NCBI GenBank assembly: GCA_016841825.1
Contig: JAENYK010000021.1
Span: forward strand, 1 to 59,047
Length of the DNA: 59,047 nucleotides
Source: Halothermothrix sp.
GTDB taxonomy: Bacteria; Bacillota; Halanaerobiia; DY22613
Reading direction: 5' to 3'
Within the stretch, counting starts at the first letter, position 1. The number at the start of each line of letters is the position of its first letter. The notes beneath the pieces were generated by a model. That model worked only from the letters and a program-made list of their open reading frames with translations. It was not told where the DNA came from and ran no database searches. The position numbers and the translations under genes are program-made. This document shows positions 8,354-24,996 of the stretch, piece by piece.

Positions 8354-9718
8354 ATGGCAAAAACTAAAACCCGGTTTGTTTGTCAAGAATGTGGATATGA
8401 AGCTTTAAAGTGGTTTGGTCAGTGCCCTGGATGCAAGGAATGGAATACTCTTGTAGAAGAGACTATTTCATCCACTCAAGCCAATTTGAAGCAAGATTCA
8501 ATAAGCACAATACCCCAATCAATCGTCGAGATTGCAACAGATAAATATCCACGAATGACGACAATGTTTTTGGAATTAGACCGGGTATTAGGTGGTGGAA
8601 TAGTCCCCGGGTCACTGATCCTTATTGGTGGAGACCCGGGGATTGGTAAATCAACTCTTCTTTTACAGGTAGCTGACTATATTGCTCAGCAATATGGAAG
8701 AGTTCTTTATATCACCGGAGAAGAATCTGGCAGTCAGATTCGTTTACGTGCAGAGAGATTGAAGACAATTTCTTCAGAGTTATACATATATCCTGAGACT
8801 AATATTTCTGCTATTGAGCAGGGGATTGTAAATACTAAACCCTTATTGGTTATCGTTGATTCGATACAGACAGTATTCAACCCTGAATTAAGTTCAGCTC
8901 CTGGAAGTGTTAGTCAGGTCAGGGAATGTTCAGGTTATTTAATGAGGATAGCTAAAGAAAAAGGTATCCCTATTTTTATTGTAGGACATGTGACTAAAGA
9001 AGGAAGTCTTGCTGGACCCAGGGTATTGGAACATATGGTAGACACTGTCTTATATTTTGAAGGAGAGAGACATCATTCCTATAGAATTTTGCGGGGAGTT
9101 AAGAATAGGTTTGGTTCGACTAATGAGATAGGTATATTTGAGATGCGTCAGACAGGTCTTCATGAAGTTCCTAACCCATCGGAAGCATTCCTATCAGAAC
9201 GCCCACAGAATGCTCCTGGATCTGTAGTTATTCCATCTTTAGAAGGGAGTCGCCCTATTCTTGTCGAATTACAGGCTTTAGTCAGTGCTGCCAACTTTGG
9301 AACACCTCAGCGAATGACAGCCGGGGTTGATTATAATCGGGTATCATTGGTCTTAGCGGTTTTGGAGAAGAAGATTGGGATGTATATTCAGAGCCAGGAT
9401 GTGTACATAAATATAGCTGGGGGAGTCAGGTTAAGTGAACCTGCGCTAGATCTGGGAATTGCGGTTGCCTGTGCTTCTAGTTACCGAGAGAAGCCCATTG
9501 ATCCTAAAGCGGCTATTATCGGGGAGATTGGATTGGCAGGAGAGATTAGAGCGATTAATCAAATCGAAGCCAGGATTAAAGAAGCTAAAAAGCTTGGTTT
9601 TTCCAGAGTCATTATGCCCTGGAATAATTATAAAGCCATGGAGTTTGACCCTGAACTGGAATTAACCGGGGTTAAGGATTTGCGAGAAACACTATCTCTG
9701 ATGTTAGGAGGTGACTAA
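8354..9718 (+). CDS. radA: RadA (Sms), DNA repair branch-migration ATPase
   Basis: A 454-residue RecA-like repair protein. An N-terminal zinc finger uses Cys10, 13, 24 and 27. The ATPase has Walker A GDPGIGKST at 93-101 and the RadA-specific KNRFG motif. The C-terminal third is a Lon-protease-like domain without proteolytic function in the family. It acts at recombination intermediates. disA starts directly after its stop codon; in Bacillus, RadA restrains DisA activity, so the pairing is functional as well as positional. Confidence 0.96.
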   Translation: MAKTKTRFVCQECGYEALKWFGQCPGCKEWNTLVEETISSTQANLKQDSISTIPQSIVEIATDKYPRMTTMFLELDRVLGGGIVPGSLILIGGDPGIGKSTLLLQVADYIAQQYGRVLYITGEESGSQIRLRAERLKTISSELYIYPETNISAIEQGIVNTKPLLVIVDSIQTVFNPELSSAPGSVSQVRECSGYLMRIAKEKGIPIFIVGHVTKEGSLAGPRVLEHMVDTVLYFEGERHHSYRILRGVKNRFGSTNEIGIFEMRQTGLHEVPNPSEAFLSERPQNAPGSVVIPSLEGSRPILVELQALVSAANFGTPQRMTAGVDYNRVSLVLAVLEKKIGMYIQSQDVYINIAGGVRLSEPALDLGIAVACASSYREKPIDPKAAIIGEIGLAGEIRAINQIEARIKEAKKLGFSRVIMPWNNYKAMEFDPELELTGVKDLRETLSLMLGGD

Positions 9719-11384: not shown

Positions 11385-11414
11385 ATTATATTGATATTAG
11401 GCGGTCTTTGTCAA
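11385..11414 (-). promoter_or_regulatory. Promoter of the DUF1573-like gene
   Basis: On the minus strand: TTGACA, 18 bases, TATAAT. Placed 36 bases upstream of the chosen TTG start. Back-to-back with the carD promoter. Confidence 0.8.
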
Positions 11415-11465
11415 GGAATTTAAAATACTTTTGATCTGTTCAGGACTCTTTTACTATGGGTTCAA

Positions 11466-11495
11466 TTGACACCTTAAATGGGTGAATGTTATAAT
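11466..11495 (+). promoter_or_regulatory. Promoter of carD
   Basis: TTGACA, 18 bases, TATAAT; about 45 bases before the carD start. Divergent from the promoter of the minus-strand gene. Confidence 0.85.
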
Positions 11496-13229: not shown

Positions 13230-13928
13230 ATGAGAGTTTCTGCAATTGTCGCTGCAGCTGGTCAAGGTAAACGAATGGGCGACACAATTAATAAACAATA
13301 TTTGGCTATTAATGGACGGAAGATTCTAACTATTACATTGCTTCAATTAGATCAGATAATTGAAATTACTGAACTTATTGTTGTTGTGCCAGCTTCAGAT
13401 TTGACTTATTGCGAAAAAGAGATTTTTCAAAAAACCGAATTTAAAACACCATATAAATTAATACCCGGTGGTAAAGAGCGGCAGGACTCGGTATATGCTG
13501 GGCTTGCTGCTCTCTCTAATGAATCTGACTATGTACTCATTCATGATGGTGCCAGACCATTAATTACTATTGAACTAATAGAAAATGCTTTAAAAGAAGC
13601 AGTAACCCATGGTACTGCTGTTTTAGCTGTTCCGGTTAAAGATACAATAAAAGTTGTTAATTCAAATGGTTTTGTTGAATCAACTCCAGATCGGGCGAGA
13701 TTAAGAGCGGTTCAAACACCGCAGGTTTTCTGCCGGGAGCAGATTCTGCAGGCTTATCATCAGGCGCAAGCTATTGGTTATGTGGGTACAGATGATGCTT
13801 CACTGTTGGAAGCGATGGGACAGAGTGTATTTTTAGTACCAGGTTCATATGAGAATATCAAAATTACCACTCCAGAAGATTTACTTCTGGCCGAGGAGAT
13901 ATTACGGAGGAGAGCAAAATGCGGGTAG
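13230..13928 (+). CDS. ispD: IspD, MEP cytidylyltransferase
   Basis: A 232-residue enzyme of the non-mevalonate isoprenoid pathway: CTP plus methylerythritol phosphate gives CDP-methylerythritol. The nucleotide-binding AAAGQGKRMG loop lies near residue 9, and IHDGARPL follows near residue 107. It ends inside the start of ispF (10-base overlap), so translation is coupled. Confidence 0.95.
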   Translation: MRVSAIVAAAGQGKRMGDTINKQYLAINGRKILTITLLQLDQIIEITELIVVVPASDLTYCEKEIFQKTEFKTPYKLIPGGKERQDSVYAGLAALSNESDYVLIHDGARPLITIELIENALKEAVTHGTAVLAVPVKDTIKVVNSNGFVESTPDRARLRAVQTPQVFCREQILQAYHQAQAIGYVGTDDASLLEAMGQSVFLVPGSYENIKITTPEDLLLAEEILRRRAKCG

Positions 13929-14410
13929 GAATTGGTTATGATGTACATAAATTAGGAGAAAATGAAGAATTGGTATTAGGTGGGGTTAATATACCTTTTC
14001 ATAAAGGATTAATTGGCCATTCTGATGCAGATGTCTTGACTCATGCCATTATGGATGCTATACTAGGGGGGTTAGGACGAAGAGATATTGGGTATCATTT
14101 TCCCGATACAGAAGATCAATACAGAGGAATCTCCAGTTTGCAGTTGTTAGCCAGAGTCTTTGCAATCATGGATGAAGAGAGCTATCAATTAGGTAATTTG
14201 GATGCAGTAGTCGCTGCCCAGGCTCCTAAATTGGCTCCCTATATCGAACAGATGGTAAAAAATATAGCACAGATATTGCAGGTATCTGAGAGACAGATAA
14301 ACATAAAGGCTACTACTACTGAAAAGCTTGGCTCTGTCGGTCGGGGAGAAGGAATTACTGCTCAGGCCATTGTCCTATTAGTAAGAAGAGAAGAAGAGAA
14401 AGCGAAGTAG
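13919..14410 (+). CDS. ispF: IspF, MEcPP synthase
   Basis: A 163-residue trimeric zinc enzyme that cyclises CDP-methylerythritol phosphate to MEcPP. Metal ligands lie in GIGYDVHKL (Asp8, His10) and around SDADVLTHAIMDA. The C-terminal signature TTEKLGSVGRGEGI is present. IspE, the step between IspD and IspF, is not in this window. Confidence 0.96.
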   Translation: MRVGIGYDVHKLGENEELVLGGVNIPFHKGLIGHSDADVLTHAIMDAILGGLGRRDIGYHFPDTEDQYRGISSLQLLARVFAIMDEESYQLGNLDAVVAAQAPKLAPYIEQMVKNIAQILQVSERQINIKATTTEKLGSVGRGEGITAQAIVLLVRREEEKAK

Positions 14411-14424
14411 GAAGGTGAATTAAA

Positions 14425-15195
14425 ATGTATGTAAAAGAAATAATGGTGAAAAATCCAATTACTATTTCTCCATCAGCAACACTGCTGGAAGCTGAAAAAT
14501 TAATGACTGTAAACAATATTGGTCGTCTGATTGTTGTTGATGATGGTAATGTAATTGGGATGTTAACTGACAGTGATTTAGTTAATCAACATAACCTGGA
14601 TGTTAAGGTTGAAGCATTAATGTCATGCGAACTTATTAAAGTTTATGAGGATCAAAGTGTACAGGAAGCAGCAACTCTTTTAGCTGATCATCACATAGGT
14701 GGTCTGCCAGTGTTTAATCGGGAAGGAAAGCTTATTGGCATCGTAACCGCAGAAGACCTGGTTTTAGGTTTTGTTCGTGATGAAACTCAGGCGAAAATAA
14801 CCCCGGAAAGTGCAGCTATCTATTTGTCAATGACCCGTAGTCGGGAATATGAAAAATATTGGTTAGATAAGGTAACTGGTTATGGGTACCGGGCTGCAAT
14901 AACTCAGGCGGGTGCTGGCGCAGAAAAATTGGCGATTAAGCTCAGAGAGAGTACTACTGTAGCTGCTATCGCCCGTGGTGTTATCAGTGAAAATTCTCGA
15001 GAAAAGATGGCTGTATCCTATGCAGTCAAGGATGCTTATGCACAGCTGGATCTGGTTAATCCAGGTCTAGGTGGCGGGTTTAAAGTGGCTATCGTTCGTG
15101 GTGAAGGACGAGTGGCGGTTGCGATTTTTGGTAAATTTGGTCATGCTCTAGTTGATGGACCTGAACAGTTAACTATTGGTACTAGTGTCATTTAA
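14425..15195 (+). CDS. CBS-pair protein fused to a HutP-like RNA-binding domain
   Basis: A 256-residue fusion. Residues 1-57 and 62-118 are two CBS motifs (PITISPSATLLEAEKLM; LIGIVTAEDLV), which usually bind adenosine nucleotides. Residues 130-256 resemble HutP, the trimeric antiterminator of the Bacillus hut operon: the start SMTRSREYEKYW is like clostridial HutP-family proteins, and the end FKVAIVRGEGRVAVAIFGKFG fits the HutP core. The histidines that bind L-histidine and magnesium in Bacillus HutP align with Arg192, Ala196 and Gln248, so histidine is probably not the signal. I infer RNA binding controlled by a nucleotide. It lies 15 bases after ispF and is followed by hairpins that may be its target. 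Confidence 0.7.
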   Translation: MYVKEIMVKNPITISPSATLLEAEKLMTVNNIGRLIVVDDGNVIGMLTDSDLVNQHNLDVKVEALMSCELIKVYEDQSVQEAATLLADHHIGGLPVFNREGKLIGIVTAEDLVLGFVRDETQAKITPESAAIYLSMTRSREYEKYWLDKVTGYGYRAAITQAGAGAEKLAIKLRESTTVAAIARGVISENSREKMAVSYAVKDAYAQLDLVNPGLGGGFKVAIVRGEGRVAVAIFGKFGHALVDGPEQLTIGTSVI

Positions 15196-15204
15196 ATTGC
15201 AAAT

Positions 15205-15250
15205 GATACCCCTCTGGTGATTTTTTGTGCTCGAGGGGTATTTGTATTTC
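15205..15250 (+). terminator. Terminator-like hairpin after the CBS-HutP gene
   Basis: A 9-bp inverted repeat (ATACCCCTC with GAGGGGTAT) with an 18-base loop, followed by a T-rich but interrupted run. It lies between the CBS-HutP gene and the DUF1002 gene. The loop is longer than in a typical terminator. Bacillus HutP acts on a terminator in the same relative place, just after hutP. Confidence 0.55.
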
Positions 15251-15330: not shown

Positions 15331-16197
15331 ATGAAAATAATCAGGATTTTTTTGCTTACGCTAATAGGTTTGAGTTTATTGACACTGATTGGATTAGCAA
15401 TGCAGACAGGACAAGAATTTATCTCTTTTGGAGCAGATCTGAGTAAAGACCAGAGGAATCAGATGTACGATAATTTTCGACCTCAGAGCCGTCCTCAGAT
15501 GATTGAAGTGACTAATGGAGAAGAGCATGAATATTTGAGTAAATATGTCCCGGATAGACAGATTGGCAGTAGAGCTATTTCGTCAGTTTATCTACAAACT
15601 CTGGAACCTAATTCTGGTATTCGAGTAGAGAGTAACAATATTACCTGGGTCACCAGTGGAATGTATGCCAATGCAGCAGCAACTGCTGGAGTTAAAGATG
15701 TATTAATCAAAGCCGATTCACCTTATCCGGTTTCGGGGACAGCAGCGCTTACAGGTATTATTAAAACTTTTGAACAGGCTCAAGGTGCTTCTATTAGTTC
15801 AGCACGCAAAGACGCCGCATATCAGGAGTTGATTACAACAGGTGAGTTAGGTGAGAAAGTAGGTAAAGAGAATGCAGAATATCTAATCAGAGATGTTAAA
15901 AAAGAGATTGTAGAGAAAAGGGTTAATGACCCAGAGGAGATTAGAATAATTATTGAAAATAAGGCAGAACAGTATAATATTAAGTTAACAGAAACACAGA
16001 TTGATCAGATCCAACAATTAATGGAGAAAATAAATAGTCTGGATCTAAATGTTCAGGAGATCAATAACCAGCTTCAAAATCTTAATACAAAAGTGAAGGG
16101 TATTCAAGACGAGGGGAAGAAAGCCACAGGTATCCTGGCACAGATTTTAAACTTATTACAACAATTGTTCAATTTAATTGCAAAAATTTTTTCGTAA
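15331..16197 (+). CDS. DUF1002 (YpuA-like) membrane-anchored protein
   Basis: A 288-residue protein. Residues 1-23 are a hydrophobic N-terminal signal or anchor. The DUF1002 core follows at about 30-160, recognised from SFGADLSKDQRNQMYDNF, EVTNGEEHEYL, GSRAISSVYLQTL and NITWVTSGMYANAAATAGV. The C-terminal third is a predicted coiled coil (about 200-262) ending in a short hydrophobic amphipathic segment. The function of the family is unknown. It lies alone after the CBS-HutP gene, before the cysE T-box region. Confidence 0.8.
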   Translation: MKIIRIFLLTLIGLSLLTLIGLAMQTGQEFISFGADLSKDQRNQMYDNFRPQSRPQMIEVTNGEEHEYLSKYVPDRQIGSRAISSVYLQTLEPNSGIRVESNNITWVTSGMYANAAATAGVKDVLIKADSPYPVSGTAALTGIIKTFEQAQGASISSARKDAAYQELITTGELGEKVGKENAEYLIRDVKKEIVEKRVNDPEEIRIIIENKAEQYNIKLTETQIDQIQQLMEKINSLDLNVQEINNQLQNLNTKVKGIQDEGKKATGILAQILNLLQQLFNLIAKIFS

Positions 16198-16261: not shown

Positions 16262-16520
16262 GGAAAAACGATGATGGAGAGAGAACAATTTATTATATCC
16301 TTGACAGAGAAGAGATGTCATCGGCTGAAAACATCTTACAGGGATTAAATTTGTTTATGCACTCTGGAGTTGGACGGTTGAAGTTATTACAGTAAACTGT
16401 TCCCGATTGGTGGACGTTATTACACCTTTTAAGAAGAGTCTATGAATTATTAGACTAAACAGAGTGGAACCGCGGATAAAACCGTCTCTGTAGCTTGTGC
16501 TATAGAGACGGTTTGTTTAT
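16262..16520 (+). ncRNA. T-box riboswitch, cysteine specifier
   Basis: The leader ends with the T-box sequence AGAGTGGAACCGCGG at 16461-16475. It is followed by a strong terminator (16478-16519: AAACCGTCTCTGTAGC with GCTATAGAGACGGTTT, then a T-rich end). The likely specifier codon is TGC at 16358-16360, placed just before ACTCTGGAGT as in other T-box stem I elements. The acceptor-binding bulge reads TGGA (16465-16468); its last base would pair with the U discriminator of tRNA-Cys, supporting Cys. Uncharged tRNA-Cys should prevent termination and raise cysE expression. Confidence 0.9.
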
Positions 16521-24714: not shown

Positions 24715-24739
24715 CCTTTTTGTGAGTAAAACTTAAAAT

Positions 24740-24858
24740 TGTTTATAAGCTGTAGACAGTAGGTGCAAAGGCGGTAACCTGATGCTTAATTCCCTACCGA
24801 GGCTGGATATAGATTCGTCTGTAACCAAGACCTTCGTATGTCTGCGAAGGTCTTTTAT
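24740..24858 (+). ncRNA. Ribosomal protein L10 leader
   Basis: The sequence has the Firmicutes L10-leader pattern: GTAGGTGC, a TAA-containing loop, then CCCTACCGAGG closing the helix. A terminator follows (24827-24858: AAGACCTTCG with CGAAGGTCTT and a T-rich end). By known mechanism, L10(L12)4 binding favours termination and lowers rplJ-rplL expression. It fills most of the 316-base gap between rplA and rplJ; the remaining 140 bases show nothing else I can name. Confidence 0.88.
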
Positions 24859-24996
24859 TATTTCATATCCAGTGGATGAACAGCTAAAATGATGCGGTTT
24901 TGAAGACGGGGATCTTCTGTCAGCACATTACTAAACTTGAGTTTCGTCACATATATCGGGTTTAGCCCCATCAAGGTTTACAGAGGAGGTGGAATA

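Follow-up and report, generated by a model that had tools for sequence, protein, structure and literature searches.

HutP is a textbook protein antiterminator; what is known of it comes, to our knowledge, essentially from a single Bacillus operon. CBS pairs with an adenosyl-binding signature are found in DarB/CbpB, AcuB and the CBS part of CcpN. The pair stands alone in DarB, while in CcpN it is joined to a DNA-binding domain. The protein described here carries a CBS pair with the same signature, followed by a HutP fold instead of the DNA-binding domain of CcpN and of the different C-terminal part to which the AcuB pair is joined. Its gene (14425-15195, forward strand, ATG start, 256 codons for amino acids) lies in a 59,047-nt stretch of Halothermothrix sp. 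DNA (contig JAENYK010000021.1), referred to below as the window. Compared with the HutP proteins of Bacillus and Geobacillus (PF09021; 1vea, 1wmq, 4ok9), with which it has a fold in common over ~130 residues as well as a significant profile match, the fusion protein has an added N-terminal CBS pair, replacements of the histidines H73, H77 and H138, and a shorter T99 loop. A search of the open-access literature (subscription papers were outside its scope) found no paper pairing HutP with a CBS domain, nor one on the HutP family, the HutP domain or HutP-like proteins, and the CBS-HutP domain fusion is apparently unstudied.

A CBS pair joined to a HutP-fold domain

The fusion gene encodes a real, deeply conserved protein composed of a CBS pair and a HutP-fold domain. 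As the original prediction had proposed, residues 1-118 comprise two CBS motifs: Pfam PF00571 matched in two stretches (E 1.4e-31), corresponding to motif 1 at residues 3-54 (14431-14586, forward strand, with GMLTDSD at residues 45-51) and motif 2 at approximately residues 58-116 (14596-14772, forward strand, limits set by eye, with GIVTAED at residues 105-111). Residues 130-256 had been described as HutP-like, and a PF09021 profile search bore this out, matching residues 129-252 (14809-15180, forward strand) at 105.4 bits, where the cut-off is 25 bits (E 3.3e-30, profile positions 3-124 of 128). When genomes were searched with PF09021, the same interval was recovered (G000:C15:14809-15180, E 3.1e-30) as one of three HutP proteins in the source genome, and B. 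subtilis was the sole positive among 14 control genomes.

Scanning one genome per species for homologues yielded 49 loci at 50-70% identity, 48 of which were full length or nearly so. These 48 relatives, from Halanaerobiia and some uncultured Bacillota, share the identical two-domain layout; carriers include Halanaerobium, Orenia, Halonatronum, Natroniella, Halanaerobacter and Frackibacter, together with the uncultured Bacillota.

An AlphaFold2 model of the fusion protein, built from 48 aligned sequences, had a mean pLDDT of 88.8 and a pTM of 0.54, which leaves uncertain how the CBS and HutP halves are positioned against each other. Modelled residues 122-256 matched Geobacillus HutP 4ok9_A with Z 18.6 (rmsd 2.3, 131 residues aligned) and Bacillus HutP 1wpv and 1vea with Z 18.1, and 1wmq, 1wrn and 4h4l were further HutP structures among the fold matches; this agreement speaks against a different fold for residues 130-256. 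Modelled residues 1-123 matched solved CBS pairs with Z up to 19.7, the value obtained for AcuB with ADP (DarB with AMP, Z 16.9), and the nearest folds include pairs solved with AMP, ADP, ATP, Ap4A, SAM/MTA and c-di-AMP. In sequence searches of the PDB, the HutP structures were reached with a 15-sequence profile; HutP was absent among the matches listed for the whole protein as a single sequence (60, CBS entries), and a single-sequence search with the HutP part alone did not reach the HutP structures.

Nucleotide signatures and the altered HutP pocket

In CBS domains the GhxS/TxxD signature marks sites for the ribose-phosphate of an adenosine ligand, and both motifs of the fusion protein match it (GMLTDSD and GIVTAED). 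In motif 1, G45 and D51 were present in 48 of the 48 aligned sequences and Ser or Thr at position 48 in 39, while in motif 2 G105, Ser or Thr at position 108 and D111 were each found in all 48. The fusion protein is probably a regulator answering an adenosine-type signal. The original prediction was more specific, envisaging an RNA regulator with an adenine nucleotide or SAM as its input and hence a direct link from energy state to transcript read-through. Of that proposal, which is a reasonable one, the combination of CBS pair and HutP fold, the loss of the histidine triad and the intact adenosyl signatures are borne out; RNA binding, anti-termination and the energy link would be further, putative steps, and c-di-AMP is as plausible a ligand as an adenine nucleotide or SAM. 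c-di-AMP is a serious candidate, because the CBS proteins DarB and OpuCA bind it (the OpuCA CBS structure with c-di-AMP is 5ks7) and because disA lies upstream of the fusion gene.

DarB is a CBS protein that binds c-di-AMP and acts through protein partners (PMC7900238). A comparable explanation of the fusion protein, somewhat unlikely in our estimation, is that its CBS pair reads c-di-AMP and that its HutP domain is an oligomeric scaffold for a protein, e.g. Rel or RNA polymerase, with no RNA binding involved. This mode of action is established for DarB, and a DarB structure (6yj7) is among the fold matches.

With respect to the HutP half, when HutP sequences of Bacillus and Geobacillus taken from the PDB were aligned with the fusion protein, M195 fell at H73 and Y199 at H77 of B. 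subtilis HutP. The counterpart of H138 was Q248 in one alignment and P246 in a wider one; the position is uncertain by two residues, with no His in the fusion protein at either and His in just a few homologues. The triad had been predicted to be replaced by Arg192, Ala196 and Gln248. All three histidines are indeed replaced and Gln248 is acceptable, but Arg192 and Ala196 were placed three residues early. His is absent from the H73 and H77 equivalents in every CBS-HutP homologue, and position 195 is Met, Ile, Ser or Leu across the 48 aligned sequences. On the strength of this alignment, the Mg2+/L-histidine site is gone across the whole CBS-HutP family.

Positions in the pocket region are near-invariant: residue 199 is Asn in 46 of the 48 aligned sequences (the Tyr of the fusion protein and one Ser are the exceptions), residue 248 is Gln in 45, and D203 is present in all 48. 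This polar set of N199, D203 and Q248 suggests that the HutP pocket may still bind some small molecule. It also favours a different explanation, namely that the HutP pocket is the main sensor, for an amino acid or small molecule of changed specificity, and that the CBS pair only oligomerises or provides a second input. A triad-less stand-alone HutP-like group, encoded in some relatives directly before chorismate mutase, DAHP synthase and EPSP synthase, points the same way, in that it suggests tuning to other amino acids. However, the usual N199 is a Tyr in the source protein, and a mere oligomerisation module would have no need of the nucleotide signatures that both CBS motifs conserve. We regard a primary HutP-pocket sensor as unlikely.

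The two halves are conserved to different extents, the mean majority-residue fraction among the 48 sequences being 0.85 at residues 129-256 versus 0.56 at residues 1-118, as expected if the HutP half meets a fixed partner. The HutP half is also basic, with a median pI of 8.9 versus 5.8 for two Bacillaceae HutPs, which would be compatible with nucleic-acid binding and is weak evidence for it. The loop at T99 is shorter in the fusion protein and the T56 and T128 positions differ; we take these three to be RNA-contacting residues of B. subtilis HutP, and RNA recognition, if kept, must therefore have changed. The loss of these RNA-recognition positions favours the protein scaffold described above; against that scaffold, HutP is a known RNA-binding fold and is here the better conserved half.

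Operon position and candidate RNA targets

In nearly all loci the gene order is radA-disA-carD-PIN/TRAM-ispD-ispF-[CBS-HutP]. Within the window, ispF (13919-14410, forward strand), the upstream neighbour conserved in nearly all related loci, ends 14 nt before the fusion gene. A perfect sigma-70 consensus promoter (TTGACA-N18-TATAAT, 12/12 matches) lies ahead of carD at 11466-11495 on the forward strand, in surroundings where the total of promoter-like matches was no higher than in shuffled sequence, and likely starts a carD-PIN/TRAM-ispD-ispF-CBS-HutP operon. Two perfect sigma-70 matches, divergent, are present at 11385-11495 between orf137 (reverse strand) and carD (forward strand), and several distant relatives have, at the corresponding place, a small gene on the opposite strand that is related to orf137.

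These arrangements bear on the explanation in which the CBS pair reads c-di-AMP and passes the signal to a protein partner. It gains from the c-di-AMP synthase gene disA, which in most loci belongs to the gene run that contains the fusion. The order disA-radA-ispD-ispF is standard in Bacillota, however, so the closeness of disA says little, and the perfect promoter before carD suggests a transcript apart from disA in the source genome.

Downstream of the fusion gene, an intrinsic-terminator-like hairpin (15206-15241, forward strand; ATACCCCTC / GAGGGGTAT, then a T-rich tail; -15.9 kcal/mol in the hairpin scan) is the predicted end of the operon in the source genome. In Halanaerobiia the genes that follow are gltX (cysE) cysS mrnC thyX rlmB sigH, and in some uncultured groups a MurA-like gene, identified by eye. 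In the window gltX has no place after the fusion gene, and the best GltX match, at 40% identity, is on contig 27. Where gltX would be expected, the window's lineage has a gene for a DUF1002 protein with an apparent signal sequence (15331-16197; PF06207, E 2e-77). In the nearest relative (L034:7785-13548), an insertion after CBS-HutP contains a lysine riboswitch (8812-8995) that precedes a 519-aa membrane protein, NhaC-type antiporter-like by eye.

No histidine-degradation genes lie beside the fusion gene, whose neighbours are radA, disA, carD, PIN/TRAM, ispD, ispF, gltX, cysE and cysS; in this it differs from Bacillus HutP. That the gene keeps this position among housekeeping genes speaks for a core function and against a niche switch in catabolism.

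We considered whether the protein might act in cis and control its own operon, or adjacent gltX, through an attenuator in the gap. Consistent with this, gltX is the downstream neighbour in most Halanaerobiia, and at four loci (the window, L055, L063 and L080) the gene is followed by terminator-like hairpins. On the other hand, most Halanaerobium gaps to gltX are ~25-45 nt and lack a terminator, gltX is absent at the window locus, and, in a further difference from Bacillus HutP, the intergenic gaps of the operon in the window contain no NAG-triplet clusters. A general cis-attenuator between the fusion gene and gltX was rejected by gap lengths and the hairpin scan, and we consider autoregulation in cis very improbable.

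Across the whole window, the number of NAG clusters was at chance level. At the fusion gene itself Rfam gave no match to a known RNA element; the only nearby leader is a T-box at 16262-16492 upstream of cysE (16549), which scored 90.6 bits (E 1.4e-19) and just missed the Rfam gathering score of 93. Farther along, a Ribosomal protein L10 leader (RF00557, 65.6 bits) is found at 24732-24867. These scans of the window thus gave no RNA target in cis, which weighs against an RNA regulator. Because the gaps flanking the fusion gene are short in most relatives, NAG clusters are lacking from the intergenic gaps around it in the window and no Rfam element occurs at the gene, action in trans is more likely.

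Our preferred reading, to which we assign a probability of roughly 40%, is that the fusion protein regulates RNA in trans, with an adenine nucleotide or c-di-AMP as the gating ligand. For its ligand, oligomer, RNA binding, anti-termination and targets we infer the following scheme. The CBS pair would bind an adenosine-containing ligand (AMP/ADP/ATP, Ap4A, SAM or c-di-AMP) at its GhxS/TxxD sites, and binding would alter the packing of the oligomeric HutP-fold domain. L-histidine and Mg2+ would no longer be the switch of this domain, the CBS pair substituting for them. The HutP domain would then bind or release single-stranded RNA in the leaders of unlinked transcripts, which would change their termination or translation.

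Distribution and stand-alone HutP relatives

HutP matches in long open frames indicated that the fusion is present in ~49 of 59 sampled genomes of the source organism's class, among which one family (f4) had no HutP match whatever. Outside the class, a Bacillota-wide sample yielded ~22 genomes from some eight families. In a tree of HutP domains, which has 142 columns and long branches and leaves the relations between groups uncertain, the fused domains formed one group with support 99/95; since they group together in this way, the fusion probably arose once.

The source genome also encodes two stand-alone HutP-like proteins, L001 and L002 (PF09021 E 1.1e-44 and 6.5e-33, respectively), whose domains resemble that of the fusion but lack a CBS pair. 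In L002 the His triad is complete, and the protein belongs to a triad-bearing stand-alone group (which includes L002/L113 of the source genome), while L001, with Gly at the H73 and H77 positions, belongs to a large Gly-Gly group with no His. A further stand-alone group, in Halanaerobium-type genomes, has Arg-Arg-His (L117, L121, L124). Because two of the three sampled stand-alone groups are without a complete triad, triad loss alone is not special. Since the source genome also encodes a separate HutP with the triad, the fusion protein need not be its histidine sensor.

The genomic surroundings of the stand-alone genes vary. The Arg-Arg-His genes (L117:5280-5753, L121:4882-5364 and L124:4811-5296) lie beside corrinoid adenosyltransferase, LpxK-like or ABC transporter genes. 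At L131:5206-10563, as also at L120 and L132, a triad-less stand-alone HutP-like gene is directly upstream of aromatic-pathway genes, the run at L131 being chorismate mutase type I, aminotransferase, DAHP synthase, prephenate dehydrogenase and EPSP synthase; the HutP-like protein of these loci is possibly a regulator for aromatic amino acids.

Extended from the single protein to all its carriers, the preferred reading becomes more tentative, and we put it forward as somewhat doubtful: the fusions would constitute a class-wide RNA-binding family in which a CBS pair replaces the histidine/Mg2+ switch, so that the level of adenylate or c-di-AMP directly controls RNA binding and the read-through of unlinked genes. 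The occurrence of the fusion in most of the sampled class genomes points to the HutP fold as a regulatory module of general use, which could be coupled to different sensors. A nucleotide-gated RNA-binding protein would unite second-messenger or energy signalling and RNA control in one polypeptide.
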